This document shows, piece after piece, positions 21,556 through 34,227 of a stretch of DNA of 64,000 bases. Under the pieces are notes generated by a model, which was given only the letters and a program-made list of their open reading frames with translations, was not told the DNA's origin and did not search any database. The stretch's first letter is position 1. Each line of letters opens with the position of its first letter. The position numbers were made by a program, and so were the translations under genes. Origin of the DNA: Sphingobacteriia bacterium 28-36-52 (GTDB lineage: Bacteria; Bacteroidota; Bacteroidia; Chitinophagales; Chitinophagaceae). The stretch is from the NCBI GenBank assembly GCA_002281575.1, contig NCGN01000005.1:146837-210836 (forward strand), written 5' to 3'.

Positions 21556-22908
21556 ATGCGAGTTAGAAATCCTAGAACCGGTGTGTACGATTATGAAATA
21601 CCGGATTGTACTGCTGCTCAAATAGTACAATGTTGTAAGCAATTACGAATCCATCAAGATGCTTGGGTAAGATCAGGCATTACCAATCGTGTTGCAGTTT
21701 TGCAAGAATGGAAACAATCTATTATAGTCAATAGAGAATTGTTGATAGGGGCATTAGCTGCTGATACAGGTAGAACTTGGGAAACTACAGCTGAAGTAGA
21801 TTGGGTAATTGATGCTATTGATAAATGGTGCGCTATTGCTAATAATTTTTATGAAGAATATGCCAATTGGATTCCGTACCAATTGATTGGAGTTATTAGT
21901 CCATGGAATTTTCCATTGGCCTTGTCTATGATGGATACCATTCCTGCCCTTTTATCAGGAGCTGCCGTTTTAGTAAAGCCCAGTGAAATAACCCCTCGTT
22001 TTATTGAAGTGATGAATAGAACTATTCTTGCAGTTCCTGGGCTTCAAAAAATACTATTATTTACGCCTGGCGATGCAAGCGCTGGTGCAACAATGGTAGA
22101 TCAAGTAGACTTAGTCTGTTTTACTGGCTCAGTAAATACAGGAAAGAAAATTGCTTTAGCTGTGAGTAAAAAATTAACCCCTGTATTAATGGAAATTGGG
22201 GCAAAAGATCCAGCGATTGTTTTACAAGGGGCTAACTTGGAAATTGCGGCATCAGCTATTTTAAAAGGCAGCACTACGAATGCCGGACAAAATTGTTTGA
22301 GTTTTGAAAGAGTTTATGTGCATGAGTCTGTTCATGATGATTTAGTTGATTTATTAATTGAAAAAACAAAAGCACTTCAACTAGTAGCAGATGATCAACA
22401 CAAGGGTGAAATTGGTCCCATCATTTTTGAAAAACAAGTGTTAACCATCAATACCCATTTAGAAGATGCAAAAGCTTTGGGTGCAATTATTGTGATAGGA
22501 AGCGAAAGTTGCGAACAAATTCATGGTGGTTTTTATTGCAGGCCAACCATTTTGGTTAACGTTACGCATAATATGTTGTTAATGAAGGAAGAAACTTTTG
22601 GACCTATCATGCCTATTATGTCTTTTAGTTCTGTAGAAGAAGTTGTTGAATTAGCCAATGCTACTAAATATTCTTTAGGTGCGGCAGTGTTTGCTGCAAC
22701 CGATGAGGAAGCAGAAGATATTGCAAATCGAATTAATGCAGGGTCTATAAGTATTAACGAGTCTGCGCTTACTGCTATTTTACATTATGGTGATAATCTC
22801 AGTTTTAATATGAGTGGTATTGGCGGATTAAGAATTGGCAAAGAAAATTTCAGCAGGTTCTTAAAGAAAAGAACCATTCATTTGTTAAAGAAATCTAATT
22901 CACATTAA
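21556..22908 (+). CDS. NAD(P)-dependent aldehyde dehydrogenase family protein
   Basis: Cytoplasmic oxidoreductase of 450 residues, typical of the class-3-like branch of the ALDH family. The cofactor segment GVISPWNFPLALSMM is near residue 115, VKPSEITPRFIEV near 140, the general-base Glu in LMEIGAKDPAIVL near 214 and the catalytic Cys in TNAGQNCLSFERV near 250. The late motif EETFGPIMPIM is near 350. The C-terminus RFLKKRTIHLLKK is close to that of fatty-aldehyde-type enzymes. It is probably cotranscribed with the PhnA-like gene upstream. The stop lies directly before operator site A of the two-component regulon, so the next gene is likely controlled separately. Confidence 0.92.
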   Translation: MRVRNPRTGVYDYEIPDCTAAQIVQCCKQLRIHQDAWVRSGITNRVAVLQEWKQSIIVNRELLIGALAADTGRTWETTAEVDWVIDAIDKWCAIANNFYEEYANWIPYQLIGVISPWNFPLALSMMDTIPALLSGAAVLVKPSEITPRFIEVMNRTILAVPGLQKILLFTPGDASAGATMVDQVDLVCFTGSVNTGKKIALAVSKKLTPVLMEIGAKDPAIVLQGANLEIAASAILKGSTTNAGQNCLSFERVYVHESVHDDLVDLLIEKTKALQLVADDQHKGEIGPIIFEKQVLTINTHLEDAKALGAIIVIGSESCEQIHGGFYCRPTILVNVTHNMLLMKEETFGPIMPIMSFSSVEEVVELANATKYSLGAAVFAATDEEAEDIANRINAGSISINESALTAILHYGDNLSFNMSGIGGLRIGKENFSRFLKKRTIHLLKKSNSH

Positions 22909-22946
22909 TATGTGATTGGTTCAGGTTGGCTTAAAGGGGTTCTTTG
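22900..22946 (+). promoter_or_regulatory. Operator A and promoter of the first lipoprotein gene
   Basis: TCACAT (22900-22905), TAAT, ATGTGA (22910-22915) is a perfect 6-base inverted repeat with a 4-base spacer. Its centre is 35.5 bases before the first T of TTTG (22943-22946); the sequence before that box (GTTC) is a poor match to TAnn, as expected for an activator-dependent promoter. The gene start at 22966 is 19 bases further on. The same geometry recurs at four other promoters nearby. Confidence 0.72.
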
Positions 22947-22965
22947 CAATCCTAAATTAATTCCA

Positions 22966-23757
22966 ATGAAACCAATGAATGTATTTTTTGCAGCTATACT
23001 ATCCATGCTGCTTTTTTCTTGTAAAAAACAAGATCAGCCAGCCCCAGTGCCGGGTACAGAGACCAAACTCTTAAAGAAAATCTACACAAGTGCAAATGAT
23101 TTTCAATTGTTTACTTACAATGAAAGTAAGCAACTCGTAAAGTTAACCAATCAGTATGTAGATGACCCTATTAATAACGGGATTATTACTGAAGAAGCTG
23201 TTTTAACTTATGAAAGCAATAAGTTAAAGCGAGTACAACATGAAGGAGGATATATGATTTATCATTACACTGGTAATCATTTAGACTCTATTCAAAACTT
23301 TACATTGACCAATAGATTAATGAGTGTTGATTATCCTGAAATAAATGCACAAAATCAGTTGGTGACGGTTACAACCAAGTTGCCTGGATTATTCCCTGGT
23401 CTTCCAATTGCATTACAGCGTTTATTTACTTATTCAGCTTCAGGAAACTTAACTGAAATGCGCTATTCATTTAAAAGAACCACCAATGGCGTTTACGAGT
23501 TACAGGAACGAATAGTTTTTTCTGCATATGATAGTAAGCAGAATCCAGACCAATTTAGTTATACAGAACATTATATTCCTGGCTTAATATTCATGAAAAA
23601 CAATCCTGGAAGAGTTCAATATTATGATGATAATGGTGATGTTTCTGAAGATATTAACTTTGTATATCAATTTGATTCTGCTGGTTGGGTATCTAAAAAA
23701 ACGGCTACCACAGTAGGTTCGCCTAATCCTGAAGTAGCGTTTTACGAGTACTATTAA
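22966..23757 (+). CDS. Hypothetical lipoprotein, predicted member of the two-component regulon
   Basis: Lipoprotein of 263 residues from ATG 22966 (MKPMNVFFAAILSMLLFSCKKQD); the lipobox LFSC puts the lipidated Cys at about residue 19. An in-frame GTG at 22912 lies inside operator A and is rejected. The mature part is beta-rich with loosely repeated strands ending in Tyr, such as FQLFTYNESKQLVKLTNQ, MIYHYTGNHLDSIQNF and RLFTYSASGNLTEMRYSF, similar in style to DUF4595/YD-repeat-like lipoproteins of Bacteroidota. Function unknown. A strong terminator follows at 23769-23808. Confidence 0.8.
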   Translation: MKPMNVFFAAILSMLLFSCKKQDQPAPVPGTETKLLKKIYTSANDFQLFTYNESKQLVKLTNQYVDDPINNGIITEEAVLTYESNKLKRVQHEGGYMIYHYTGNHLDSIQNFTLTNRLMSVDYPEINAQNQLVTVTTKLPGLFPGLPIALQRLFTYSASGNLTEMRYSFKRTTNGVYELQERIVFSAYDSKQNPDQFSYTEHYIPGLIFMKNNPGRVQYYDDNGDVSEDINFVYQFDSAGWVSKKTATTVGSPNPEVAFYEYY

Positions 23758-23762
23758 TAAAC

Positions 23763-23809
23763 TCACATACTCATGTGATTGTTTCAATCACATGAGTGTT
23801 TTTTCTTTG
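23763..23809 (+). promoter_or_regulatory. Operator B and promoter of the second lipoprotein gene
   Basis: TCACAT (23763-23768), ACTC, ATGTGA (23773-23778) is a perfect 6-base inverted repeat with a 4-base spacer. Its centre is 35.5 bases before TTTG (23806-23809). It overlaps the terminator hairpin of the preceding gene. Confidence 0.72.
23769..23808 (+). terminator. Strong Rho-independent terminator overlapping operator B
   Basis: ACTCATGTGATT (23769-23780) pairs perfectly with AATCACATGAGT (23786-23797) around a GTTTC loop, followed by GTTTTTTCTTT. It should stop read-through from the lipoprotein gene upstream. Confidence 0.85.
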
Positions 23810-23830
23810 CTCAAGTTTAATATTAAAAGC

Positions 23831-24640
23831 ATGAATAAATCCCTATTACTTTTTGCATCAATAATTATTCTCTTATTAAGTGGCTGTTCCTCTGTAAAAA
23901 TTTCTTTACAAGGTGAAGCTTGGAACGATAAAGAAACTTTTCCTGTAAAAGGAAGGGGAATTGCATTTATAAAAGAAAAAATAAGCTTTGGCAATTATGC
24001 TACTAGTTATGTAAAACGCTCTTGGACAAGAGGTGGAAATTCAAAATATGGAATAGGAACAGGAATGCCTGGCACCCCTGAGTACGCAAATATCATTTCT
24101 GTAGGTTATATTGATAAAAAGCAAACACTGAGATTTGGTTTAACTGATGGAACATCTAATCAATCAGATGTTTTTGCTGTTGCTAATTTTAACGCACGCG
24201 AATTTCAAATTGGCAAAAATGAAAATAGTCTTTTGAATATTGCATTAGATATTTTTCAACAAGCTAAAAAGCCCTCTACTTCCATGTACTATGTTCAATT
24301 GTATATGAATAAGGAAGAAAGTCCATGGCAATTGATTCATGATAACTATACCTCACAGCAGCCTGCTAAAAATTATATTGGTTACTTAACTAAAAGCAAG
24401 AATCACTATTACCAAATAGTACCTATTAGTAGTGTAGAAAACAATAAAGGTAAAATTATGAATATGCCTTTTGGGGCAAATGGATTTGCATTCTTAACCA
24501 AAGAAGGACAACCATTGGTAGCTGTTTCACTACTAGATAGAGGCACCGTTTATTTTGCTAAAGATATTTTACCAGATGAGAAGTTTTTATTGGCTAATGC
24601 AGCAACCGCTTTGTTAATGCAACAAGAATTGGGCGGTTAA
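23831..24640 (+). CDS. Hypothetical lipoprotein, predicted member of the two-component regulon
   Basis: Lipoprotein of 269 residues from ATG 23831 (MNKSLLLFASIIILLLSGCSS), with lipobox LSGC. The ATG at 23792 is rejected because it lies inside the terminator hairpin and upstream of the -7 box. The mature part is of mixed composition; EFQIGKNENSLLNIALDIF and YYQIVPISSVENNKGKIMN suggest a beta-sandwich or lipocalin-like fold, but I do not recognise the family. It is convergent with the SDR gene and the two end four bases into each other. Operator B sits directly upstream, so it is predicted to respond to the same regulator as the neighbouring lipoprotein. Confidence 0.78.
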   Translation: MNKSLLLFASIIILLLSGCSSVKISLQGEAWNDKETFPVKGRGIAFIKEKISFGNYATSYVKRSWTRGGNSKYGIGTGMPGTPEYANIISVGYIDKKQTLRFGLTDGTSNQSDVFAVANFNAREFQIGKNENSLLNIALDIFQQAKKPSTSMYYVQLYMNKEESPWQLIHDNYTSQQPAKNYIGYLTKSKNHYYQIVPISSVENNKGKIMNMPFGANGFAFLTKEGQPLVAVSLLDRGTVYFAKDILPDEKFLLANAATALLMQQELGG

Positions 24641-25413
24641 CCCATGATTCCTTTTACTGCTCCTCCATCTATTGTGATGGTTTGACCTGTAATAAATTTA
24701 CTTTGTGGACTCAATAACCAAATGGCCAATCCAGCAAAATCGGCTGCTTCTCCAAGCTTACCTACTGGTATTTGCTGTATTCCCATTTCTTTCACTTGAT
24801 CAAAAGGTAGTCCAGTTTGCTCTGCTTTCTTGGTATAAAGTCTGTTGATTGCAGGTGTATTATGTGAGCCTGGTCCTAATATATTTAATGTAACACCGGT
24901 TGAAGCTATTTCTTGTGAAAGGGTTTTAACCATTCCCACTACAGCTAGTCTTAAAGAGGTACTCAATACCAAATTTTCAACAGGCTGTTTTACTGAAACA
25001 CTTTCTATATAAACAATTCTGCCATAGCCTGCATTCACCATTTTAGGAACAATTGCTTGTGTAAGCGCCACTTTCCATCTTAAAATTGTGTGATAAGCTT
25101 TATCCCAATCTTCTAATGTGGTTTCTAATACCATTTTTGCAGGTGGGCCTCCTGCATTAACAACCATACCGTGTACGGGTTTGTCATTGATTAGCTCTAG
25201 TAATCTTGAAAGCGTTTCTTCTTCGGCTAAGTCGCCTGCTAATATATTTATTTGATTGGGTGCTGTTAATTGCAGTTCTGCTAGTTTATCTATTCCTCTT
25301 GCAATTGCTATAACCAATGCACCTTCGTTTACTAAAGCCAGGGTAATGGCTTTTCCAAATCCTGAGGTAGCTCCTCCAACTATAAACAACTGATTTTGTA
25401 GGCCTAAATTCAT
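24637..25413 (-). CDS. SDR-family protein lacking the YxxxK active site
   Basis: Short-chain dehydrogenase/reductase fold of 258 residues. The nucleotide-binding GGATSGFG (near 13-20) and VVNAGG (near 84-89) are intact. The Ser at 138 (IESVS) is in the usual place, but the residues 13 and 17 further on, where Tyr and Lys of YxxxK should be, are Ser151 and Arg155 (VLSTSLRLAV). A related SDR group with SxxxR-like sequences exists, so this may be a true subfamily with altered catalysis or a binding role. It follows the response regulator gene by eight bases on the same strand and is probably in its operon. Confidence 0.88.
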   Translation of the reverse strand: MNLGLQNQLFIVGGATSGFGKAITLALVNEGALVIAIARGIDKLAELQLTAPNQINILAGDLAEEETLSRLLELINDKPVHGMVVNAGGPPAKMVLETTLEDWDKAYHTILRWKVALTQAIVPKMVNAGYGRIVYIESVSVKQPVENLVLSTSLRLAVVGMVKTLSQEIASTGVTLNILGPGSHNTPAINRLYTKKAEQTGLPFDQVKEMGIQQIPVGKLGEAADFAGLAIWLLSPQSKFITGQTITIDGGAVKGIMG

Positions 25414-25421
25414 CCCACAAT

Positions 25422-26054
25422 TTAAACAATTTTATCCTTAAATGCCTTAGCTACTGCTTCACTTTTACTGTTCACATGTAATTTCTCATAAATCTTTTTA
25501 ATATGACTTCTAACAGTATCAATAGCAATAATCATTTCGGCTGCAATCATTTTATAACTGTATCCATTCACTAAAAACTGCAGTACTTGTTTTTCTCTTT
25601 CACTTAAATTATAGTCTTCTCCTTTTTGATTGTTCATAGCAGAAAACATTTTCAAAACTTGTGTTGCTATATTGGCACTCATAGGTGCACCTCCGCTTGC
25701 AGCTTCTGTAATATATTCTAGTAAACGTGCTGGTGCAGTCTTTTTTAAAATATATCCATTTGCACCATTTTTAATTGACTCAAATACATTTTTATTGTCG
25801 TCAAATACGGTGAGCATTAATATTTTTACTTCCGTATTGGTTGTCCTAATATTTTTAAGTCCCTCAATTCCATTTATACCAGGCATGTCTATATCCATTA
25901 AAATGACATCTGGATTAAATGCAGCTACTTCATCTATTGCATTGTTACAATTTTTGTATGCAGCAACAACCCTGAATCCATCGCTTCCATCAATAAGCAT
26001 GGTTAAACCTTCTCTTAATTGAGGATTGTCTTCGTATATGAGTACTTTAATCAT
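25422..26054 (-). CDS. NarL/LuxR-type response regulator, predicted regulon controller
   Basis: Response regulator of 210 residues from ATG 26054 (MIKVLIYEDNPQLREGL); upstream in-frame codons precede the promoter box and are excluded. Receiver domain about 1-125, with the acidic pair Glu8-Asp9, phospho-acceptor Asp54 (ILMDIDMPG) and Lys in ANGYILKKT. The LuxR-type helix-turn-helix is about 145-207, with LSEREKQVLQFLVNGYSYKMIAAEM. Its likely partner is the propeller kinase encoded 1.2 kb upstream, whose HisKA_3 domain normally pairs with NarL-type regulators. The gene has an upstream copy of the operator motif at the regulon spacing, suggesting autoregulation. Confidence 0.93.
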   Translation of the reverse strand: MIKVLIYEDNPQLREGLTMLIDGSDGFRVVAAYKNCNNAIDEVAAFNPDVILMDIDMPGINGIEGLKNIRTTNTEVKILMLTVFDDNKNVFESIKNGANGYILKKTAPARLLEYITEAASGGAPMSANIATQVLKMFSAMNNQKGEDYNLSEREKQVLQFLVNGYSYKMIAAEMIIAIDTVRSHIKKIYEKLHVNSKSEAVAKAFKDKIV

Positions 26055-26071
26055 TAAGTTGAATTGAATGT

Positions 26072-26118
26072 TAAAACTACAAATTGAAATGGTTTTATAC
26101 AATCACATAAATATGTAT
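26072..26118 (-). promoter_or_regulatory. Operator F and promoter of the response regulator gene
   Basis: Read on the minus strand the site is ATACAT-ATTT-ATGTGA (26118-26103), matching ten of twelve positions of the motif TCACAT-N4-ATGTGA. Its centre is 35.5 bases before TTTA of the -7 box TAGTTTTA (26079-26072). The ATG at 26054 is 17 bases further. This implies feedback control of the regulator-SDR operon. Confidence 0.65.
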
Positions 26119-26123
26119 TTATT

Positions 26124-27230
26124 TTAGTATCCCCTTCCGCCTGTTAAAACAGAATAGATTTTTGGAACCAATTTCCTGATTAATTCACCAACTGCAATAC
26201 TAATTGCTATTACTAACAATGGAATTAATAAATAACAGGTTATTCTGTTTAGCCAAAAATTGGACGTAATATTTAATGCGTAAGTCATTAAATATGGAAG
26301 CATGGGTACATGTAAGGCAAATATGAAAAAAGAGTGTTTGCTTATATGGAGAAACCATTTTTGGTTGATGGTATATTTTATAATTGGATCTATTCCATAC
26401 CATATAGCAACCATTCCACAAAGAATGGCTATTCTATGTAAAATGGTGAGTGTTAAATGTGTTTTAATGACATTGGGCTCAAGCTCGAATGCCATAAAAG
26501 TTTTAATTACACTAATTCCTACAAATAGTATAAAAAATATTCCAATGCTTAACCACTGGGGCCTTTTCTCTAAAAAAATCCCCTTTTTTTGTGCCAATAC
26601 TCCAACACTAAAAAAGAATAAACCTTGGCCATCTAATATAAAAAACTGAATGGGAAAGAACCAGATAAGAAAAGTAAAACTCAACCAAATAATTGGAACT
26701 TTTTGTAAGACCCATCTAATAAATGGATAAATAAGATTGTATATAAACAATGCCATAATAAACCAAAGCTGAAAGGCAATAGGTGTAAAAATCCACCTAA
26801 AGAAAATGCCATTCCAACCAATTTCACTATACGGCCTATTATCACCCATTTGATCTATTCCTGTTTGAGCTATAATTGCTGCACTGCCCTTAAATTGTTG
26901 TAGTGCATAAGTAAACAACAATGCAATTGCGCTCCATAATAAATATGGAATCATTAAAGTCTTAACTCTTTTTTTGATACTTTCTATATAAGACCTTGAA
27001 TCAAATAAAGCAAATAAATATCCGGAAATAATGAACAAGAGCGGTATCCTAAACCTAAGGAGTCCGTTGGCAAATAAATATTCAAAAAAACTAGTAAAAC
27101 TCAGGGGCTCTTCTACGATGCTATAAGGAGCTAAATAAGTCTCCTTTAAATTGTACCCGTGCACATAAGACAGCAAACAAATACTAATGAAAGTAAAAAA
27201 TCTGAATTTTTGGCTAAGTGCTCTATTCAT
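26124..27230 (-). CDS. Membrane acyltransferase, family 3
   Basis: Integral membrane protein of 368 residues with about ten hydrophobic helices, of the acyltransferase-3 (OatA/OafB-like) family that transfers acyl groups to sugars or lipids. The early segment FRFFTFISICLLSYVHGY replaces the usual motif around the catalytic His: only one His (in YVHGYN, near residue 24) is present there. LLFIISGYLFALFDSRSYIESIKKRVKTLMIPYLLWSA near 61-98 is typical of the family (loop R-R-...-P-Y). It lies six bases after the kinase gene and is expected to share its transcript. A link between acylation and the sensed signal is conjecture. Confidence 0.85.
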   Translation of the reverse strand: MNRALSQKFRFFTFISICLLSYVHGYNLKETYLAPYSIVEEPLSFTSFFEYLFANGLLRFRIPLLFIISGYLFALFDSRSYIESIKKRVKTLMIPYLLWSAIALLFTYALQQFKGSAAIIAQTGIDQMGDNRPYSEIGWNGIFFRWIFTPIAFQLWFIMALFIYNLIYPFIRWVLQKVPIIWLSFTFLIWFFPIQFFILDGQGLFFFSVGVLAQKKGIFLEKRPQWLSIGIFFILFVGISVIKTFMAFELEPNVIKTHLTLTILHRIAILCGMVAIWYGIDPIIKYTINQKWFLHISKHSFFIFALHVPMLPYLMTYALNITSNFWLNRITCYLLIPLLVIAISIAVGELIRKLVPKIYSVLTGGRGY

Positions 27231-27236
27231 TGTTTT

Positions 27237-30200
27237 TTATTGAACAGGTATTTGTAATTGAATATTGGTTCCTTTATTTAATTCAGAATTGATTATTAAA
27301 ATACCATTCAAAGCATCTGAACGCTTCTTCATATTACCCAAGCCATTTCCATTATCTGTGGTTTTTGTATCAAAACCTAACCCATTGTCTTTGATAGATA
27401 AGATTAATTTTTTACCAATAACAGTAAGTTCAACTGTAATATTTGAAGATTTTGAATATTTGGCTGCATTATTAATGGCTTCTTTAAAAATTAGAAAGAA
27501 ATCTCTGCGCGCTTCCATATTCAATTTAACTTCATTAACCATATCGGCACATAAGAATTGGAGTTCAATGTCTTTTGCTTCACACACATTGGTGGCAAAC
27601 TCTCGCATTCTTGCCACAATTTTTTGCATACTGTCGTTAGCCGGTTTGATGCTCCAAACAATATCATCCATTGCTTCCATCATTCTTTGACTATTGTCCG
27701 AAATTTTATTCAAGTATTCTCCTGTTTTAATATTATCGCTAAGCCTTGCTTTAGCCATTGAACTTAAAATATTAATGGTGCTAAGTGTGCTACCCATATC
27801 GTCGTGTAAATCTCTTGCTACCCTTGTTCTAATATTTTCTACTTCTATTAATTTATTTAACCTTAATCGATGCATGGTATAGGCTATTAAAGCTACCATG
27901 GTTAATAATAGGCTAATAAACCACCCCGTTCTCCAAAATGGTGGTCTAATATAGATTTGCATGCTACTAATATTGTTAGACCTATTGCCATCATTGTCTT
28001 CGCAATAAATTTGAAAAGTATAATTGCCAGGCCTTAAATATGAGTAGTTAACCGTATTATTTCTATCTGCTTTAATCCAATCCTGGTCTATCCCTACCAT
28101 TTTATAATAGTAAGTAAGCTTATCTCTTAGGATAAAGCTGAGTGCAGAAAAACTTATTGAAAAACTGTTTTGATGCGAATTCAACAATACTTTAGGTAAT
28201 AATTGCAAAGAATCTACTGGTATATAAGTATTGGAGAGTTTAAAGTCGGTAAAAGCTACATCAGGAGGTGTTGTATTATTAGTAAATGCTGTAGGCGAAA
28301 AAAATAATAAGCCATTTGATCCAGCAAATAAAACAAATTGATCGCTGGTAATATAATCTGCTTCAGTGGTTAAGTTGGCTATTACAACACCATCCTTTTT
28401 TTCATATGGAGTGATAACACCATTTACTGGATTATATCTGCAAAGCCCATTTCTTGTAATCATCCAGCAGTTTCCTTTATGGTCTTTCCTAATGCGTAAT
28501 ACCGAATTGGCTGGTAACCCATCTTCTGTTGTTAGCCAAGTTACTTTTTTTGTTTTTTTATTAATAAAATTGAGTGCGCCAGCAGCAAACACCAATGTAC
28601 TATCATTTAATTGGTCTATATCGTCTCCACCTTTTTGAAAAAGTGGATTTGTTTTATCTGAAACAGAATAGTGATGCACTAATGTTTTTCCATCTCCAGT
28701 AAAACAATACAAACCTTGATTTAAAGACGTTACCCATAATAGCCCTTCTGAATCAAAGAAAATTTTTCTAACGATGGTTCCTATTTTCTGAACCACATCA
28801 AAACCTTTTCCATTGTATTTAATAATATCTCCCCGCTGTGTGCTCATCCAAATATTCCCTTTGGGGTCTTCTGTTATAAATCGAATAGTAGCACCTGCAA
28901 CTTCCTTAACTTCTAAATATTGCATTTTTTTAAGAGAAGTGTCGTACACCATGTACTTGCCTCCTTGACAGCCCAACCAAATTTTTCCATTACTATGTTG
29001 ATATAAACTCCAGATTTGTTGGTATTGAATTTTAGACTCGCCTTTAATATGCTTGGGCATATTATTGAGTAAATCATTTTTGTAACTAGCTAAATTTTTT
29101 GATAAAGTAAGAATGCCTGCGCCCCATGTACTCAACCAGTATCCGCCATTTTTTAATTCGAGAATATCTGTTATTTCTATTCCTCCTTTTGTTTCACTAA
29201 AAATAAAGTTGACAACATTGCCACTGCTACTTTGATCACTTGACATATATAAACCATTGTCGCTGGCAATCCATATATTACCATCTCTGTCTTCGGTCAT
29301 ATGATGTATATACTCATACTGAATGCCAATGCTACTTCCAAATTCACTTTTATATAAGTTAAATTTGTTCAACCTTTGATTATAGCTGTATAAAGCATTG
29401 CTTCCATACATCCATAGGCTCCCTGTTTTACTTTCAAAAAAATACCTTAACTCTTCATATTGTGGATTTACATTTAAGCCCGAAGTGTCTGTTAATTCTT
29501 TACCAGCATAATTAAAAACCTGTCTTATATGCCTATCGGGCCAATCAAAAATCCAATACCTTTCCTGCTTGTCAATATATATTTCAGTTATATTTTTCCA
29601 TTTATTTTTTTTATTGAGTAATGGTATTTGCAATGGATTATTTTCTGAAGTGTACACTTTTTTGTTTTTCCTATCATAAACCGCTAGTCCTTTATTTAAG
29701 CATGCAAACCAAATTTGTTCAGTTTTTGTATTCTCTGCAAACGCCTGATTAGCTACCCATCCTGCTGGTAGTATCATTTCATGTTCTGGAAGAAATGCTT
29801 TTTTACTTTGGTTATACCTGAATAATCCTACACCTTGGATATTCAAAAAAGTATTTTGTTTACTGTCTTGCTGCAAACGCATTGAACTTTTTGAAGGTAT
29901 TGCTGTGGTAGATTGAATGGGAATGGTTTGATAAACCAATGAAGCATGATTGAACAGACCAATTTTACCTTGAGATGCAAAATTGAGCAACAGCTCCTGT
30001 TTCCCTACTGGAATTATTTGATGTAAGTCTGCAATAGGTAAATCATCTTTACTACGCTTACTAGTACCGTAATTGATAAATCTATTTCCATCAAATCGTT
30101 GGAGTCCATTTGCAGTCCCTACCCACATAAAACCCAGCTTGTCTTGGTAAACAGTATAAGTAACATTAGAGGCTAATCCCAAGCCATCTTCTTTTCCAAT

Positions 30201-30284
30201 TTTTAAAAATGCATATCCCTCCTTTTGTGCCATGGAAATTAAACTCACATGCAATAATAGAAAGGCGAGGATCCATTTTTTCAT
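27237..30284 (-). CDS. Propeller/Y_Y_Y sensor histidine kinase
   Basis: Membrane sensor kinase of 1015 residues from ATG 30284, with a signal peptide (MKKWILAFLLLHVSLISMAQ). A periplasmic two-component propeller region (about 25-690) contains repeated blades such as FMWVGTANGLQRFDG, NIWIASDNGLYMS and NCWMITRNGLCRYNP. It is followed by a Y_Y_Y domain (about 695-765), one membrane helix near 775-797, a HisKA_3 domain with His827 (RVARDLHDDMG) and a C-terminal HATPase (NNAAKYS, DNGLGF, GNGLGNM). Unlike the hybrid one-protein regulators of Bacteroides, it has no fused receiver; the separate NarL-type regulator nearby is the likely partner. The ligand may be a carbohydrate or other envelope-derived compound, which is inference. 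Confidence 0.93.
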   Translation of the reverse strand: MKKWILAFLLLHVSLISMAQKEGYAFLKIGKEDGLGLASNVTYTVYQDKLGFMWVGTANGLQRFDGNRFINYGTSKRSKDDLPIADLHQIIPVGKQELLLNFASQGKIGLFNHASLVYQTIPIQSTTAIPSKSSMRLQQDSKQNTFLNIQGVGLFRYNQSKKAFLPEHEMILPAGWVANQAFAENTKTEQIWFACLNKGLAVYDRKNKKVYTSENNPLQIPLLNKKNKWKNITEIYIDKQERYWIFDWPDRHIRQVFNYAGKELTDTSGLNVNPQYEELRYFFESKTGSLWMYGSNALYSYNQRLNKFNLYKSEFGSSIGIQYEYIHHMTEDRDGNIWIASDNGLYMSSDQSSSGNVVNFIFSETKGGIEITDILELKNGGYWLSTWGAGILTLSKNLASYKNDLLNNMPKHIKGESKIQYQQIWSLYQHSNGKIWLGCQGGKYMVYDTSLKKMQYLEVKEVAGATIRFITEDPKGNIWMSTQRGDIIKYNGKGFDVVQKIGTIVRKIFFDSEGLLWVTSLNQGLYCFTGDGKTLVHHYSVSDKTNPLFQKGGDDIDQLNDSTLVFAAGALNFINKKTKKVTWLTTEDGLPANSVLRIRKDHKGNCWMITRNGLCRYNPVNGVITPYEKKDGVVIANLTTEADYITSDQFVLFAGSNGLLFFSPTAFTNNTTPPDVAFTDFKLSNTYIPVDSLQLLPKVLLNSHQNSFSISFSALSFILRDKLTYYYKMVGIDQDWIKADRNNTVNYSYLRPGNYTFQIYCEDNDGNRSNNISSMQIYIRPPFWRTGWFISLLLTMVALIAYTMHRLRLNKLIEVENIRTRVARDLHDDMGSTLSTINILSSMAKARLSDNIKTGEYLNKISDNSQRMMEAMDDIVWSIKPANDSMQKIVARMREFATNVCEAKDIELQFLCADMVNEVKLNMEARRDFFLIFKEAINNAAKYSKSSNITVELTVIGKKLILSIKDNGLGFDTKTTDNGNGLGNMKKRSDALNGILIINSELNKGTNIQLQIPVQ

Positions 30285-30298
30285 TACAAACAAATTTA
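30285..30298 (-). promoter_or_regulatory. Putative promoter of the sensor kinase gene
   Basis: TAAATTTG on the minus strand (30298-30291) is an exact TAnnTTTG box, six bases from the ATG at 30284. It does not show the 35.5-base operator spacing, so the kinase gene appears to be outside the regulon. Confidence 0.45.
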
Positions 30299-30336
30299 CA
30301 AATGCTGTTTGGAAATTAGCACTATGTGAGGTAAAA

Positions 30337-30352
30337 CCACATGTTTATGTGA
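30337..30352 (+). promoter_or_regulatory. Upstream operator C in the GIN-gene control region
   Basis: CCACAT-GTTT-ATGTGA matches eleven of twelve positions of the motif. Its centre lies 42 bases upstream of operator D, four helical turns, which would allow two dimers to bind on the same DNA face. A lone half-site ATGTGA is at 30324-30329. Confidence 0.55.
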
Positions 30353-30378
30353 GCACCAAACCTATTAGGGTTCACTTT

Positions 30379-30425
30379 TCACATCTATGTGCGATTGTTA
30401 TTGATTTTATGAATGGGCATTTTTG
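30379..30425 (+). promoter_or_regulatory. Operator D and promoter of the GIN-domain gene
   Basis: TCACAT-CTAT-GTGCGA (30379-30394) has one perfect and one degenerate half-site. The centre is 35.5 bases before TTTG (30422-30425). The gene start at 30457 follows after a 31-base leader. Confidence 0.6.
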
Positions 30426-30456
30426 CTGTCTTAAAATAATTAAAAAATTCAATTGT

Positions 30457-30945
30457 ATGAAAAACTTATTCTTATCATTGGCATTAACAGCACTTTGTTT
30501 TAGTGCATTTGCTTCAACTGGCTTGAAGCCAACTTTTAAAGCAGGCAAAGCTATGGCTGCGCCTTACAAGCGGTTGGTTGTATATGGAAATTTAAAAGTA
30601 GTACTTGTTAGTGCAGATCAACAACATGTTTCAATTGCACCTCAATCTGAATCCGAAAAAGTAAATACCATTTATAGTAAAAATGAATTGGTATTAGACG
30701 GCTCATCTGTTAGTGAACTAGGTCAAGTTACTGTAAGGGTTCCAGTAAATCAGCTAGAATTACTCGATATAATCGGCAATGCTACAGTGCTTTCTGAAAG
30801 TACTTTAAATATTAGTAATCTAATTGTGACAATGCAGGGCGAAGGAAAAATTAATATTAAAAATACCGGTTCAATTAAAGTTAAATCTGATGCTGGCTAC
30901 CAATTTAAAACGATCACTCAAAAAGGTAAAGTTTGTATTGAATAA
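30457..30945 (+). CDS. Exported GIN/DUF2807-like beta-helix protein
   Basis: Exported protein of 162 residues from ATG 30457 (MKNLFLSLALTALCFSAFAS); the 75 upstream in-frame codons have no sensible start and cover the operators. The mature part resembles the head-GIN-domain (DUF2807) family: YKRLVVYGNLKVVLVSADQ, then short repeating beta strands VRVPVNQLELLDIIGNATV and IKNTGSIKVKSDAG, which fit a small beta-helix. GIN proteins are abundant in Bacteroidota and often regulated by envelope signals, but their function is not known. Two operator copies lie upstream and a terminator follows the gene. Confidence 0.8.
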   Translation: MKNLFLSLALTALCFSAFASTGLKPTFKAGKAMAAPYKRLVVYGNLKVVLVSADQQHVSIAPQSESEKVNTIYSKNELVLDGSSVSELGQVTVRVPVNQLELLDIIGNATVLSESTLNISNLIVTMQGEGKINIKNTGSIKVKSDAGYQFKTITQKGKVCIE

Positions 30946-31013
30946 GGTAAAAAGAGTATTGTCTAGTATTCCTTTGGTTACGTATTCATATATAGGTTTT
31001 GTTATTAAGCAAG

Positions 31014-31037
31014 GTCCCAGCTATGCTGGGACTTTTT
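31014..31037 (+). terminator. Rho-independent terminator after the GIN-domain gene
   Basis: GTCCCAGC (31014-31021) pairs with GCTGGGAC (31025-31032) around TAT and is followed by TTTTT. It separates the GIN gene from the DinB-like gene that starts at 31051. Confidence 0.85.
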
Positions 31038-31050
31038 AAATCATTTAATC

Positions 31051-31659
31051 ATGAATAACCCGCAAGATTTTATTAAAACCCTTTCTAAGCAATTGGCTCA
31101 GATAGAAAAAATTTTTGAGCAAGATGTTTTGAAAGCAAATGAAGATAGTTTAAGTGTAATACCCAACTATGGTGGTTGGTCTATTCTACAGGTATTAGAT
31201 CATTTAAATTTTTATAATAGATGGTATCTGCCAAAAATGGAAATGGCAATTAATAAAAGTATTACACAAAAGAAACGCCCACCTGAATTCTATAAGTCTG
31301 GGTGGTTGGGCGCTTATTTTGTTAAAATGATACAGCCAAAACCAGATGGAAACCTTACTTCTAAAATGGTTGCACCTAAAAATGCCATTCCTGCAACTAT
31401 ATTAAATTCAGAAAAGGTATTAAATGAATTTTCAACTCATCTAGCTCATTTAAGTAATCTGCTATACTTGGCCATGAATACTGATATCAGCAATACTCGT
31501 GTTGTTACTTCACTTTCCTCTTGGGTTAGTTTAAAAACGGGCGACAGTTTCGCTTTTTTAATAGCGCATATGGAAAGGCATTTTGTTCAGATTGTGCGAA
31601 TTAAACAAAGCATACCACATAAATATGTGGTTTCCGAGTTGGAAAAAGAGGCAGTTTAA
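31051..31659 (+). CDS. DinB-like putative metal-dependent protein
   Basis: Soluble protein of 202 residues of the DinB/YfiT four-helix-bundle superfamily. The three expected metal-binding His can be placed: one in ILQVLDHLNFYNRWY near residue 49 and two in FLIAHMERHFVQIVRI near 170-175. Members include thiol transferases (bacillithiol, mycothiol) and many proteins of unknown role. No close specificity clue is visible. It sits between two regulon genes, but the terminator at 31014 and the lack of an operator at a fixed distance suggest separate control, with its own TTTTG-like box near 30998. Operator-like site G overlaps the end of the coding sequence. Confidence 0.85.
   Translation: MNNPQDFIKTLSKQLAQIEKIFEQDVLKANEDSLSVIPNYGGWSILQVLDHLNFYNRWYLPKMEMAINKSITQKKRPPEFYKSGWLGAYFVKMIQPKPDGNLTSKMVAPKNAIPATILNSEKVLNEFSTHLAHLSNLLYLAMNTDISNTRVVTSLSSWVSLKTGDSFAFLIAHMERHFVQIVRIKQSIPHKYVVSELEKEAV
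31615..31630 (+). promoter_or_regulatory. Operator-like site G within the DinB-like gene
   Basis: CCACAT-AAAT-ATGTGG is a nearly perfect palindrome with ten of twelve matches to the motif. No TTTG lies 35.5 bases downstream. It is 124 bases upstream of operator E, so it may be an accessory site or chance. Confidence 0.4.
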
Positions 31660-31717
31660 TCAACAAATGGTAAAATGTAAAGATGAATGGTGGCTTAAAA
31701 AAGAATTGGCTTCTTTC

Positions 31718-31739
31718 ACTCCTTTTAGGGAGTTTTTTT
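31718..31739 (+). terminator. Probable terminator after the DinB-like gene
   Basis: ACTCC (31718-31722) pairs with GGAGT (31729-31733), loop TTTTAG, followed by TTTTTT. The T run ends where operator E begins. Confidence 0.65.
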
Positions 31740-31785
31740 CACCTCTTTATGTGATTTTCTTGCTGCTTTAAATCAGCAACTTTTG
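31739..31785 (+). promoter_or_regulatory. Operator E and promoter of the outer-membrane barrel gene
   Basis: TCACCT-CTTT-ATGTGA (31739-31754) matches eleven of twelve motif positions. The centre is 35.5 bases before TTTG (31782-31785), and the ATG at 31804 is 18 bases further on. Confidence 0.68.
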
Positions 31786-31803: not shown

Positions 31804-34227
31804 ATGTCAAAGTTATTTACACTCTTCTTTTTTGTAGGATTATTTCTTTCTGCTTCTGCTGCAAAAGAAAATAACATTAATGGTTCTGTTATAGCAGACG
31901 GAAAGCCAATAAGTGGTGCAGTTGTTTATTTATTAAAAGACACGGGTACTGTAATTGTAAAAACAACTATTACCGATACAGATGGTAAGTTTAGTTTTAC
32001 CAGTACCCTGGCTAATTTTCGTATAACCGTTAATGCTATGGGTTATAATGAATTTACCAGTAGCGTTAAACAACCAGGATTACCCATTGAAGCTGTATTA
32101 ACGGCTTCCGAAAAATTAATGACTGCTGTTACAGTTGTTGCTCAAAGAAAACTGGTAGAAGTTAAAACCGATAAAACAGTTATTAACGTTGATGCTGCCC
32201 CAACCAATATAGGAACTACTGCATTGGAAGTGCTTGAAAAAGCACCTGGTGTAATGGTAGACAAAGATGGAAATATTTCTATGTTAGGTAAAGCTGGGGT
32301 GGTTATCATGATTGATGGTAAGCCAACTTACATGAGTAGTGCCGATGTAGCTAATTATTTAAAATCATTAAGCAGCAGTCAGCTAGATCAAATTGAATTA
32401 ATTACACAGCCTTCTGCAAAATTTGATGCGGCAGGTAATGCTGGAATAATTAATATAAAAACCAAAACCAATAAACCAATGGGTACCAATGGATCAATTG
32501 GTGCAACTTATTCTCAGGGTGTAAACCGAAGATTGTCGTTGAATGGTAGTTTAGGATATAGAAAAGGGAAGTTGAACTTATTTGGAAGTGTTAACTACTT
32601 TGATAACATTTCATTTAATGAAGTGTATTTATCTCGCAATATTCGTAATCCAAACACCAAAGAAATACTATCTGTTTTAGACCAAACTACTGGCATGAGT
32701 GTTCATGTAAAACCTTTTAATACTAAGTTCAGCTTAGATTATTTGGCTACAAAGAATACGAGTTTTGGAATGGCATTCTCAGGAAATTTTAATAGTAACT
32801 TTTTTAAGTTACCTACTAGAATGGAAGTGATTAACTCGACAGGTGTTTTACAGGGTGTTTATAATTCTGTTACTGAAAATGCAATGAACATAAATAATAT
32901 TATTGGTAATATTTATTGGAAAACCAAGTTAGATACTACCGGAAGAGAGCTTACCGCAGATATAGACTTCATAAGAAATAGCTCAGACTTTAACCAAACT
33001 ATGAATAGCTATTATTATCCTCAACAAAATAATCCTGCCGAATCTCCTTATATTTTAAAAGGACTTAATCCTTCTGTGGTTAAAGTATATACTGGGAAAA
33101 TTGATTATGTACATCCACTAAAGAAGAATGCAAAATTAGAAGCGGGTATAAAAGCCAGCTTTGTAGAAACAGACAATAATTCATTATTTAATGTTTTAAA
33201 AAATAATGTATGGGAAGTTGATCCAAGAAGCAATGATTTTATTTATAAAGAAAATATTTATGCTGCTTATTTAAATGGAAACAAGCAATGGAAAAAATGG
33301 GGACTACAATTGGGTCTTCGGTTAGAAAATACCATTATGAATGGTGATCAAATTACGACACAGCAAAAGTTTGAAAGAAATTTATTGCAGCTATTTCCAA
33401 CAGCGTTTTTGAGTTACAAGGCTTCTGATATTAGCATGTTTACTATCAATTTTGGAAGAAGAATTGATCGCCCAAACTATCGTGACTTAAACCCCTTTCA
33501 ATTATTGCTAAATCCTTTCACTTATAATCAAGGTAATCCAAATTTGCGTCCTCAGTTTACCAATAATGCCGAATTAGGATATAGTTTTAAAAATGGTATG
33601 ATTACTGCTAAGTTGGGGTATTCAAAAACTACGGATATCATTACCGATATTATTAGAGCAAATGATGCCGAAAAAGTTACTTATCAAACCAGAGAGAATG
33701 TTGCATCAAGAGAGAATATTAATTTGAGCTTGGGATTTAATAAATCTTTAAACAAAATACTCACTACAGGATTCTTTGCAAATATTTATAACAATAAGTA
33801 CAATGGTATTTTCAATAACGAACCATTAGATGAACAGTTTACTTCCTTTTCGCTAAATATGAATAATCAATTCAAGTTTGGTAAAGGTTGGTCTGCGGAA
33901 TTAAGTGGATACTACAATCACAAAGGTTTATTGTTAGCTCAAGCGTTTATTGAACCCATGTGGCAAGTAGGCTTTGGTGTAAGTAAGCAGGTGTTCAAAA
34001 ACAAAGGAACCATCCGATTATCTGCTAGAGACATATTCTTCTCGCAACGAGTAAAGATTGACCAGCGTTACCAAAACCTAGACAGTAAATTTCAACAATA
34101 TTCTGATAGCAGACATGTTGCTCTTTCTTTCACATTCCGGTTTGCCAAGAATGCTTCTAATGTAATAAGAAGAAGCGGAGGCGCATCTCAGGAAGAACAA
34201 AACCGAGTAGGAGGCGGTAACAATTAA
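31804..34227 (+). CDS. TonB-receptor-like outer membrane beta-barrel protein
   Basis: Outer-membrane protein of 807 residues from ATG 31804 with a signal peptide (MSKLFTLFFFVGLFLSASAA). Residues about 22-100 form a carboxypeptidase-regulatory-like domain (NGSVIADGKPISGAVVYLL). A plug-like domain follows (about 125-220: EVLEKAPGVMVDKDGN, SSSQLDQIELITQPSAKFDAAG), and the rest is a large barrel of the OMP_b-brl_3 type with RRIDRPNYRDLNPFQLLLNP near 550. No SusD partner gene is adjacent, unlike polysaccharide-utilisation loci. The tail RRSGGASQEEQNRVGGGNN is hydrophilic and not a typical beta-signal. Predicted to be controlled by operator E. Confidence 0.88.
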   Translation: MSKLFTLFFFVGLFLSASAAKENNINGSVIADGKPISGAVVYLLKDTGTVIVKTTITDTDGKFSFTSTLANFRITVNAMGYNEFTSSVKQPGLPIEAVLTASEKLMTAVTVVAQRKLVEVKTDKTVINVDAAPTNIGTTALEVLEKAPGVMVDKDGNISMLGKAGVVIMIDGKPTYMSSADVANYLKSLSSSQLDQIELITQPSAKFDAAGNAGIINIKTKTNKPMGTNGSIGATYSQGVNRRLSLNGSLGYRKGKLNLFGSVNYFDNISFNEVYLSRNIRNPNTKEILSVLDQTTGMSVHVKPFNTKFSLDYLATKNTSFGMAFSGNFNSNFFKLPTRMEVINSTGVLQGVYNSVTENAMNINNIIGNIYWKTKLDTTGRELTADIDFIRNSSDFNQTMNSYYYPQQNNPAESPYILKGLNPSVVKVYTGKIDYVHPLKKNAKLEAGIKASFVETDNNSLFNVLKNNVWEVDPRSNDFIYKENIYAAYLNGNKQWKKWGLQLGLRLENTIMNGDQITTQQKFERNLLQLFPTAFLSYKASDISMFTINFGRRIDRPNYRDLNPFQLLLNPFTYNQGNPNLRPQFTNNAELGYSFKNGMITAKLGYSKTTDIITDIIRANDAEKVTYQTRENVASRENINLSLGFNKSLNKILTTGFFANIYNNKYNGIFNNEPLDEQFTSFSLNMNNQFKFGKGWSAELSGYYNHKGLLLAQAFIEPMWQVGFGVSKQVFKNKGTIRLSARDIFFSQRVKIDQRYQNLDSKFQQYSDSRHVALSFTFRFAKNASNVIRRSGGASQEEQNRVGGGNN

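Follow-up and report, generated by a model that had tools for sequence, protein, structure and literature searches.

In the window, by which we mean the whole 64,000-nucleotide stretch of DNA from Sphingobacteriia bacterium 28-36-52 analyzed here, a NarL/LuxR-type response regulator and a sensor kinase are encoded among promoters that share a 16-base-pair (bp) palindrome. Our analysis makes it very likely that this regulator is an autoregulated activator that runs an envelope/lipoprotein regulon from the promoter-locked palindrome and controls the kinase gene from a second position at about -58.5. Specifically, we propose that the propeller/Y_Y_Y kinase (27237-30284) would phosphorylate the regulator (25422-26054), a dimer of which would bind the palindrome TCACAT-N4-ATGYGA. 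In the target and regulator promoters, the operator at -43.5 would abut the -33 TTG of a primary-sigma promoter (TTG-N20-TAnnTTTG) and, because of this contiguity, we propose that the regulator recruits RNA polymerase through direct contact in a class-II-like manner; at the kinase gene, the operator at about -58.5 would act in a class-I-like manner. The system would in this way activate its own genes as well as those for lipoproteins, GIN-domain proteins, outer-membrane proteins and secreted proteins. We infer the phosphorylation dependence, the binding, activation rather than repression, and an envelope-related signal from sequence.

Five promoters share a palindrome at a fixed distance from the -7 box

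The palindromes precede two lipoprotein genes (LP1 and LP2; sites A and B), the regulator gene (site F), a GIN gene (site D) and an outer-membrane barrel gene (site E; Table 1). An earlier reading of this stretch (the original prediction) had placed five palindromes at these positions with a constant offset to TTTG or TTTA, and all proved exact upon re-checking: in 5/5 sites, TTTG (TTTA at site F) begins 43 bases past the first base of the palindrome and 35.5 bases from its center. We searched the 3.18-Mb genome for the palindrome and for an extended pattern (palindrome, TTG, N24 and TTTG with at most three mismatches in total), using the reversed pattern as a control and estimating the chance expectation per 8.9 kb from a Markov-1 simulation of the window. 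The genome has only two perfect palindromes, both in the window (sites A and B), which corresponds to 2 per 8.9 kb versus 0.0013 expected. The extended pattern matched eight times genome-wide, with five matches within this 9 kb, while the reversed control gave 0; per 8.9 kb this is 5 observed versus 0.013 expected, so that the clustering beyond chance claimed earlier is upheld for both forms. Loosely matching palindromes abound, as a chance cluster would have it; however, with five extended matches against 0.013 expected and conservation in most of 80 orthologous loci, such a cluster is ruled out by the window statistics together with the conservation of the locus.

Among the extended matches elsewhere in the genome, one (L018) precedes a membrane-protein gene and another (L021) a secreted S41-like peptidase gene, named from a reading of its sequence by eye; both have a perfect TATTTTTG -7 box, and at least these two further promoters outside the window look like regulon members. 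The match on contig C17 (L022) sits inside a dehydrogenase gene and was rejected as a false positive.

The palindrome and its promoter spacing are conserved

For the analysis of conservation we used two samples with partial species overlap, i.e. 149 genomes of the family, own genome included, in which orthologues were called at a regulator identity of at least 63%, and 80 loci from Chitinophagaceae, Cyclobacteriaceae, Flavobacteriaceae and Prolixibacteraceae with orthologous regulators that are 73-100% identical. Regulator orthologues are present in 15 of the 149 genomes, own genome included, and none was found in the single further genome of this genus covered by the search. Around the orthologues in the family, the palindrome recurs before the regulator, kinase and neighboring genes within 20 kb. 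In 70/80 loci, the 400 bp preceding the regulator gene contain a palindrome with at most two mismatches, and its usual distance from the start codon is 50-95 bp. Counted on both strands with at most one mismatch, so that perfect palindromes count twice, the 80 loci contain 421 sites compared with 2-18 for rearranged control palindromes; TTTG begins at offset 43 in 127 of the 421 sites versus approximately three at most other offsets. Because the 80 loci share descent, these site counts are not independent; nevertheless, the participation of several families and the differing spacer sequences argue against plain inheritance of one sequence. The original prediction had proposed a comparison of the sites across related genomes as a check, and this comparison bears it out, with the palindrome kept at 70/80 loci and the TTTG spacing exact to the base.

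A logo of 178 distinct promoters, for which TTTG at offset 43 was required while TTG and TAnn were left free, reads TTTCACATNNTTATGYGATTG-N20-TAnnTTTG. In its -7 box, the TA has T in 57% and A in 86% of promoters, followed by n n TTTG, with the TTG 20 bases before; a purine occupies +1 in 72%. Because the TTG is found solely on the promoter side, it is the -33 element and not a part of the palindrome. Promoters of the Bacteroidota primary sigma factor have TTTG at -33 and TAnnTTTG at -7 (PMC7366714, PMC9723704), and the TAnnTTTG box lies at -12 to -5 (PMC9723704). With the numbering of PMC9723704, the operator spans -51 to -36 with its center at -43.5, and the TTG lies at -35 to -33. The family logo is that of a Bacteroidota primary-sigma promoter (-33 TTG and -7 TAnnTTTG about 20 bases apart), with TAnn being weak in the window, and differs from the general form in having an operator coupled to the -33 TTG at a constant distance. 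A 16-bp two-fold 6-4-6 palindrome near -44 that abuts the -33 element has the class-II-like placement of NarL-type sites. The original prediction had suggested an activator next to RNA polymerase based on two clues; the fixed spacing is borne out and conserved to the base, whereas the weak TAnn is a quirk of the window, the A of TA being at 86% in the family logo.

The logo also bears on the idea that terminator hairpins or a small dispersed repeat, and not operators, gave rise to the copies. Site B, the sole such site seen, overlaps a terminator-like hairpin (Table 1), yet this hairpin, which is intact in the relative L102, is degenerate in L104 while the operator with its spacing is kept there; moreover, the copies agree in the palindrome and promoter letters and differ in between. 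The comparative logo largely refutes such an origin, which we regard as extremely improbable. The hairpin itself is probably the LP1 terminator, and it shares bases with both operator B and the LP2 promoter's -33 TTG.

The kinase promoter has a second geometry

The original prediction listed the five promoters correctly but omitted a palindrome at 30337-30352 in the kinase promoter. The palindrome at the kinase gene continues with TTT, and in 27 kinase promoters TTTG follows at offset 57-59, most commonly at 58; a perfect TAnnTTTG is present in 27/27 of these promoters even though TA was left free in the selection. The operator center at about -58.5 would correspond to a class-I-like place approximately 15 bp further upstream than in the target promoters. 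We also considered this palindrome as a second operator of the GIN gene; an assignment to the kinase gene fits better because the geometry is conserved in the 27 kinase promoters, and a dual role for the kinase and GIN genes may exist. The predicted start of the kinase transcript lies about 2 bases before the ATG (30282-30298), which would make the message nearly leaderless.

These two geometries help to weigh whether the regulator might bind and repress, with the dimer beside the -33 element blocking RNA polymerase or sigma. The direction of control is not readable from sequence, the operator directly adjoins the -33 TTG, and negative autoregulation is common, all of which count in favor of repression. 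However, the -33 and -7 elements are left uncovered by the operator, which is located upstream of both; its distance from them is exact to the base, as with activators that touch polymerase; and a second fixed geometry at -58.5 is hard to reconcile with occlusion. In addition, the sites from which NarL is known to activate include one at -44.5 and one immediately before a -35 element (PMC7419079). We therefore regard repression as unlikely and favor activation.

Evidence for the NarL-type regulator as the probable reader of the palindrome

The regulator matches the Response_reg receiver (Pfam E 3e-27) and the GerE helix-turn-helix (9e-17); its best match among solved structures is NarL (1a04), aligned over the full length, with VraR and DesR also among the nearest. 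A HisKA_3/HATPase_c kinase gene stays beside the regulator gene in most orthologous loci, and by its domains and partner kinase the protein is a NarL/FixJ (LuxR-type) response regulator. Allowing one mismatch, the extended motif is present in 13/15 family genomes with an orthologue versus 5/134 without (Fisher p 5e-13; here and below, the tables were counted by hand from search listings and the genomes are not independent samples). In four genomes (G126, G128, G100 and G119), the site adjoins another NarL-type regulator gene.

Next to paralogous regulators, the letters of the palindrome change while the geometry stays. In the surroundings of 80 paralogs with 43-53% identity, where perfect 6-4-6 palindromes followed by TTG were scored, TTTG lies at offset 43 in ten cases and at 42 in four versus a mean of 0.28 elsewhere, and the palindromes read CTACAT-ATGTAG, TCCCAT-ATGGGA, TCGGAT-ATCCGA or TCACTC-GAGTGA. 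Palindromes with other letters in the same promoter geometry stand beside paralogous NarL-type regulators at seven loci (L208, L218, L221, L227, L233, L277 and L284), and at L218 and L284 they occur both before and after the regulator gene. The recognition helix TVRSHIKKIYEKLHVNSKSEA accompanies TCACAT, and in the clade with the recognition helix TVRFHIKKIYDKLHVHSATEA, CTACAT-N4-ATGTAG is found in the same geometry in 7/7 genomes versus 4/142 others (Fisher p 1.2e-9). On the minus strand of L229, near 8623 and 8114 and about 2 kb from the regulator gene, two copies of TAGCGA-N4-TCGCTA-TTG have TTTG at the same offset, and they are possibly another operator of the same grammar. The data partly support a wider reading, and we consider it somewhat probable that a large clan of Bacteroidota NarL-type regulators shares this grammar, i.e. 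a 6-4-6 palindrome (often nnnnAT-N4-ATnnnn), TTG, 20 bases and TAnnTTTG, with the outer letters (TCACAT, CTACAT, TCCCAT, TCGGAT, TCGCAT) identifying the regulator.

The same data address an unrelated factor encoded elsewhere, e.g. of the Crp/Fnr type, that would bind the palindrome with the two-component genes being merely targets. Many dimeric factors could use a two-fold palindrome of 16 bp, and the half sites of CRP have the same letters in reverse order. Because their half-site order is opposite, Crp-type sites (TGTGA-N6-TCACA) were rejected, with TGTGAY-N4-RTCACA at background in the 80 loci (14 versus 421 sites); the FNR form (TTGAT-N4-ATCAA), compared by eye only, does not fit either. 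The motif tracks this regulator and not the family at large, the operator letters shift depending on the clade of the NarL-type regulator next to them, which is unexpected for an outside factor, and no other DNA-binding gene is kept at all loci among the window genes compared. An outside factor is, in our judgment, quite improbable. The identification of the NarL-type regulator as the binder, as made in the original prediction, is consistent with conservation, base-exact spacing, co-occurrence and the letter change among paralogs, and the proposed binding of this protein to the palindrome next to RNA polymerase is strongly supported.

Several observations weigh against an autoregulated activator with its own operator. 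In 10/80 loci the orthologous regulator gene has no site within 400 bp upstream; in some of these, the kinase gene directly precedes it. The -7 box reads TTTA at site F, and sites A, B, D and E have a weak TAnn. At approximately 60 of the 80 paralogous loci, no clear palindrome was found near the regulator by the criterion used. The regulator in G078 has a slightly different helix and retains TCACAT, i.e. the match of helix and operator is not one-to-one, and for G031, with several motif copies, a matching regulator of its own was not located. Finally, the loose palindrome with at most two mismatches is not enriched genome-wide (72 versus 107 in the reversed control), nor is it in the window with at most three mismatches (27 found versus 39 expected). 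The signal lies in the clustering and the promoter spacing.

Predicted targets are rich in lipoproteins

In the 80 loci, the genes behind the operator encode, in descending order, the regulator, cytochrome-c-like proteins, GIN proteins, LP1-like lipoproteins, a sigma-like factor (in Cyclobacteriaceae) and S41-like peptidases; apart from proteins that the window also encodes, the names come from looking at the sequences. Relatives of LP1 stand behind the same operator in ten other target promoters, and 11 GIN relatives do so elsewhere. Scored by a crude sequence pattern, lipoprotein signals are present in 42/87 non-regulator targets versus 57/504 other genes. Lipoproteins again predominate among the additional targets from other genomes, and one of these targets is GIN-like by inspection. 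From these target identities, our guess is that the system may respond to an envelope-related signal.

Comparison with known systems

E. coli NarL has 7-2-7 operators at yeaR-yoaG and ogt, one of the sites being next to the -35 element and the ogt site being centered at -44.5; its consensus is TACYYMT-N2-AKRRGTA, and it activates by contacting RNA polymerase (PMC7419079). The system described here is similar in the protein family, in the 16-bp two-fold operator and in the placement of one dimer, predicted here, against the -35/-33 element (-43.5 here versus -44.5 at ogt). It differs in the operator letters (TCACATN-N2-NATGYGA), and because the letters of the NarL consensus are absent, the operator would function in the manner of a NarL site without being a NarL operator. 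Further differences are the Bacteroidota TTG/TAnnTTTG promoter, a propeller and Y_Y_Y kinase instead of NarX, surface-protein targets and the additional -58.5 kinase geometry.

VraSR/DesKR-type systems provide autoregulated cell-envelope control in Firmicutes. Their regulators are close in sequence to the one studied here and their kinases are likewise of the HisKA_3 type, whereas the sensor architecture, operator letters and targets differ, and no sign of a cell-wall-antibiotic or membrane-fluidity signal was seen here. Reg_prop/Y_Y_Y sensors occur in the Bacteroidota hybrid two-component systems of polysaccharide-utilization loci. The sensor domains are the same, but here a non-hybrid kinase and a LuxR-type regulator are distinct proteins, and no carbohydrate-utilization cluster was seen among the targets. 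A limited literature search, which covered open-license papers only and is weak evidence, returned no operator described for any regulator of this type, nor any earlier account of the motif.

What distinguishes this system is a sharply defined operator with an exact promoter place, a conserved envelope/lipoprotein regulon and two positional classes. Most genomes of the family have at least 20 scored matches to NarL-type regulators. If the grammar is true, the recognition helix would predict the operator, and orphan two-component regulons would be readable from genomes; because the same arrangement with other letters occurs in related bacteria, the targets of many unstudied regulators might be predictable from sequence. 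If it holds for the paralogs, it would offer a general route to regulon assignment and to inducible promoters in the phylum.

Genes of the locus and additional features

The host, a freshwater member of the Bacteroidota, belongs to Sediminibacterium as judged from the near-identical relatives L102 and L104, the latter being the locus in the cultivable Sediminibacterium salmoneum. For LP2, a Pfam search gave no family.

Table 1 Features of the two-component locus in the window
Feature	Position	Strand	Description
Site A	operator TCACATTAATATGTGA 22900-22915; TTG 22916-22918; TTTG 22943-22946	+	12/12; LP1 promoter
LP1 lipoprotein	22966-23757	+	lipobox SCKK, weak RHS-repeat match; predicted target
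Site B	operator TCACATACTCATGTGA 23763-23778; TTG 23779-23781; TTTG 23806-23809	+	12/12; LP2 promoter
Terminator-like hairpin	23767-23799	+	15-bp stem then T6; fold -19.9 kcal/mol, z -5.3
LP2 lipoprotein	23831-24640	+	lipobox SGCSS; predicted target
NarL/LuxR-type response regulator	25422-26054	-	Response_reg and GerE; proposed DNA-binding protein
Site F	operator ATACATATTTATGTGA 26118-26103; TTG; TTTA 26075-26072	-	10/12; regulator's own promoter
Acyltransferase-3 membrane protein	26124-27230	-	gene lies between those of kinase and regulator, a position retained in some orthologous loci
Sensor kinase	27237-30284	-	two-component regulator propeller, Y_Y_Y, HisKA_3 and HATPase_c
Kinase promoter	palindrome TCACATAAACATGTGG 30352-30337; TAAATTTG 30298-30291	-	TTTG at offset 58, predicted center about -58.5
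Site D	operator TCACATCTATGTGCGA 30379-30394; TTG 30395-30397; TTTG 30422-30425	+	10/12; GIN gene promoter
GIN/DUF2807 protein	30457-30945	+	predicted target
Orphan palindrome	CCACATAAATATGTGG 31615-31630	n/a	within the end of a DinB-like gene, about 124 bp upstream of site E
Site E	operator TCACCTCTTTATGTGA 31739-31754; TTT in TTG place; TTTG 31782-31785	+	11/12; barrel gene promoter
Outer-membrane barrel protein	31804-34227	+	CarboxypepD_reg and OMP_b-brl_3, weak plug match; predicted target

Site A is conserved in the relatives L102, L103 and L104; in the window, bases 22900-22908 of operator A (TCA CAT TAA) coincide with the end of the upstream aldehyde-dehydrogenase-like gene, namely its final three codons including the stop. 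The orphan palindrome, likewise absent from the original prediction, has a perfect copy at the matching place in L104 (near 12162, reverse strand) and may be a distal site for the promoter of the barrel gene.

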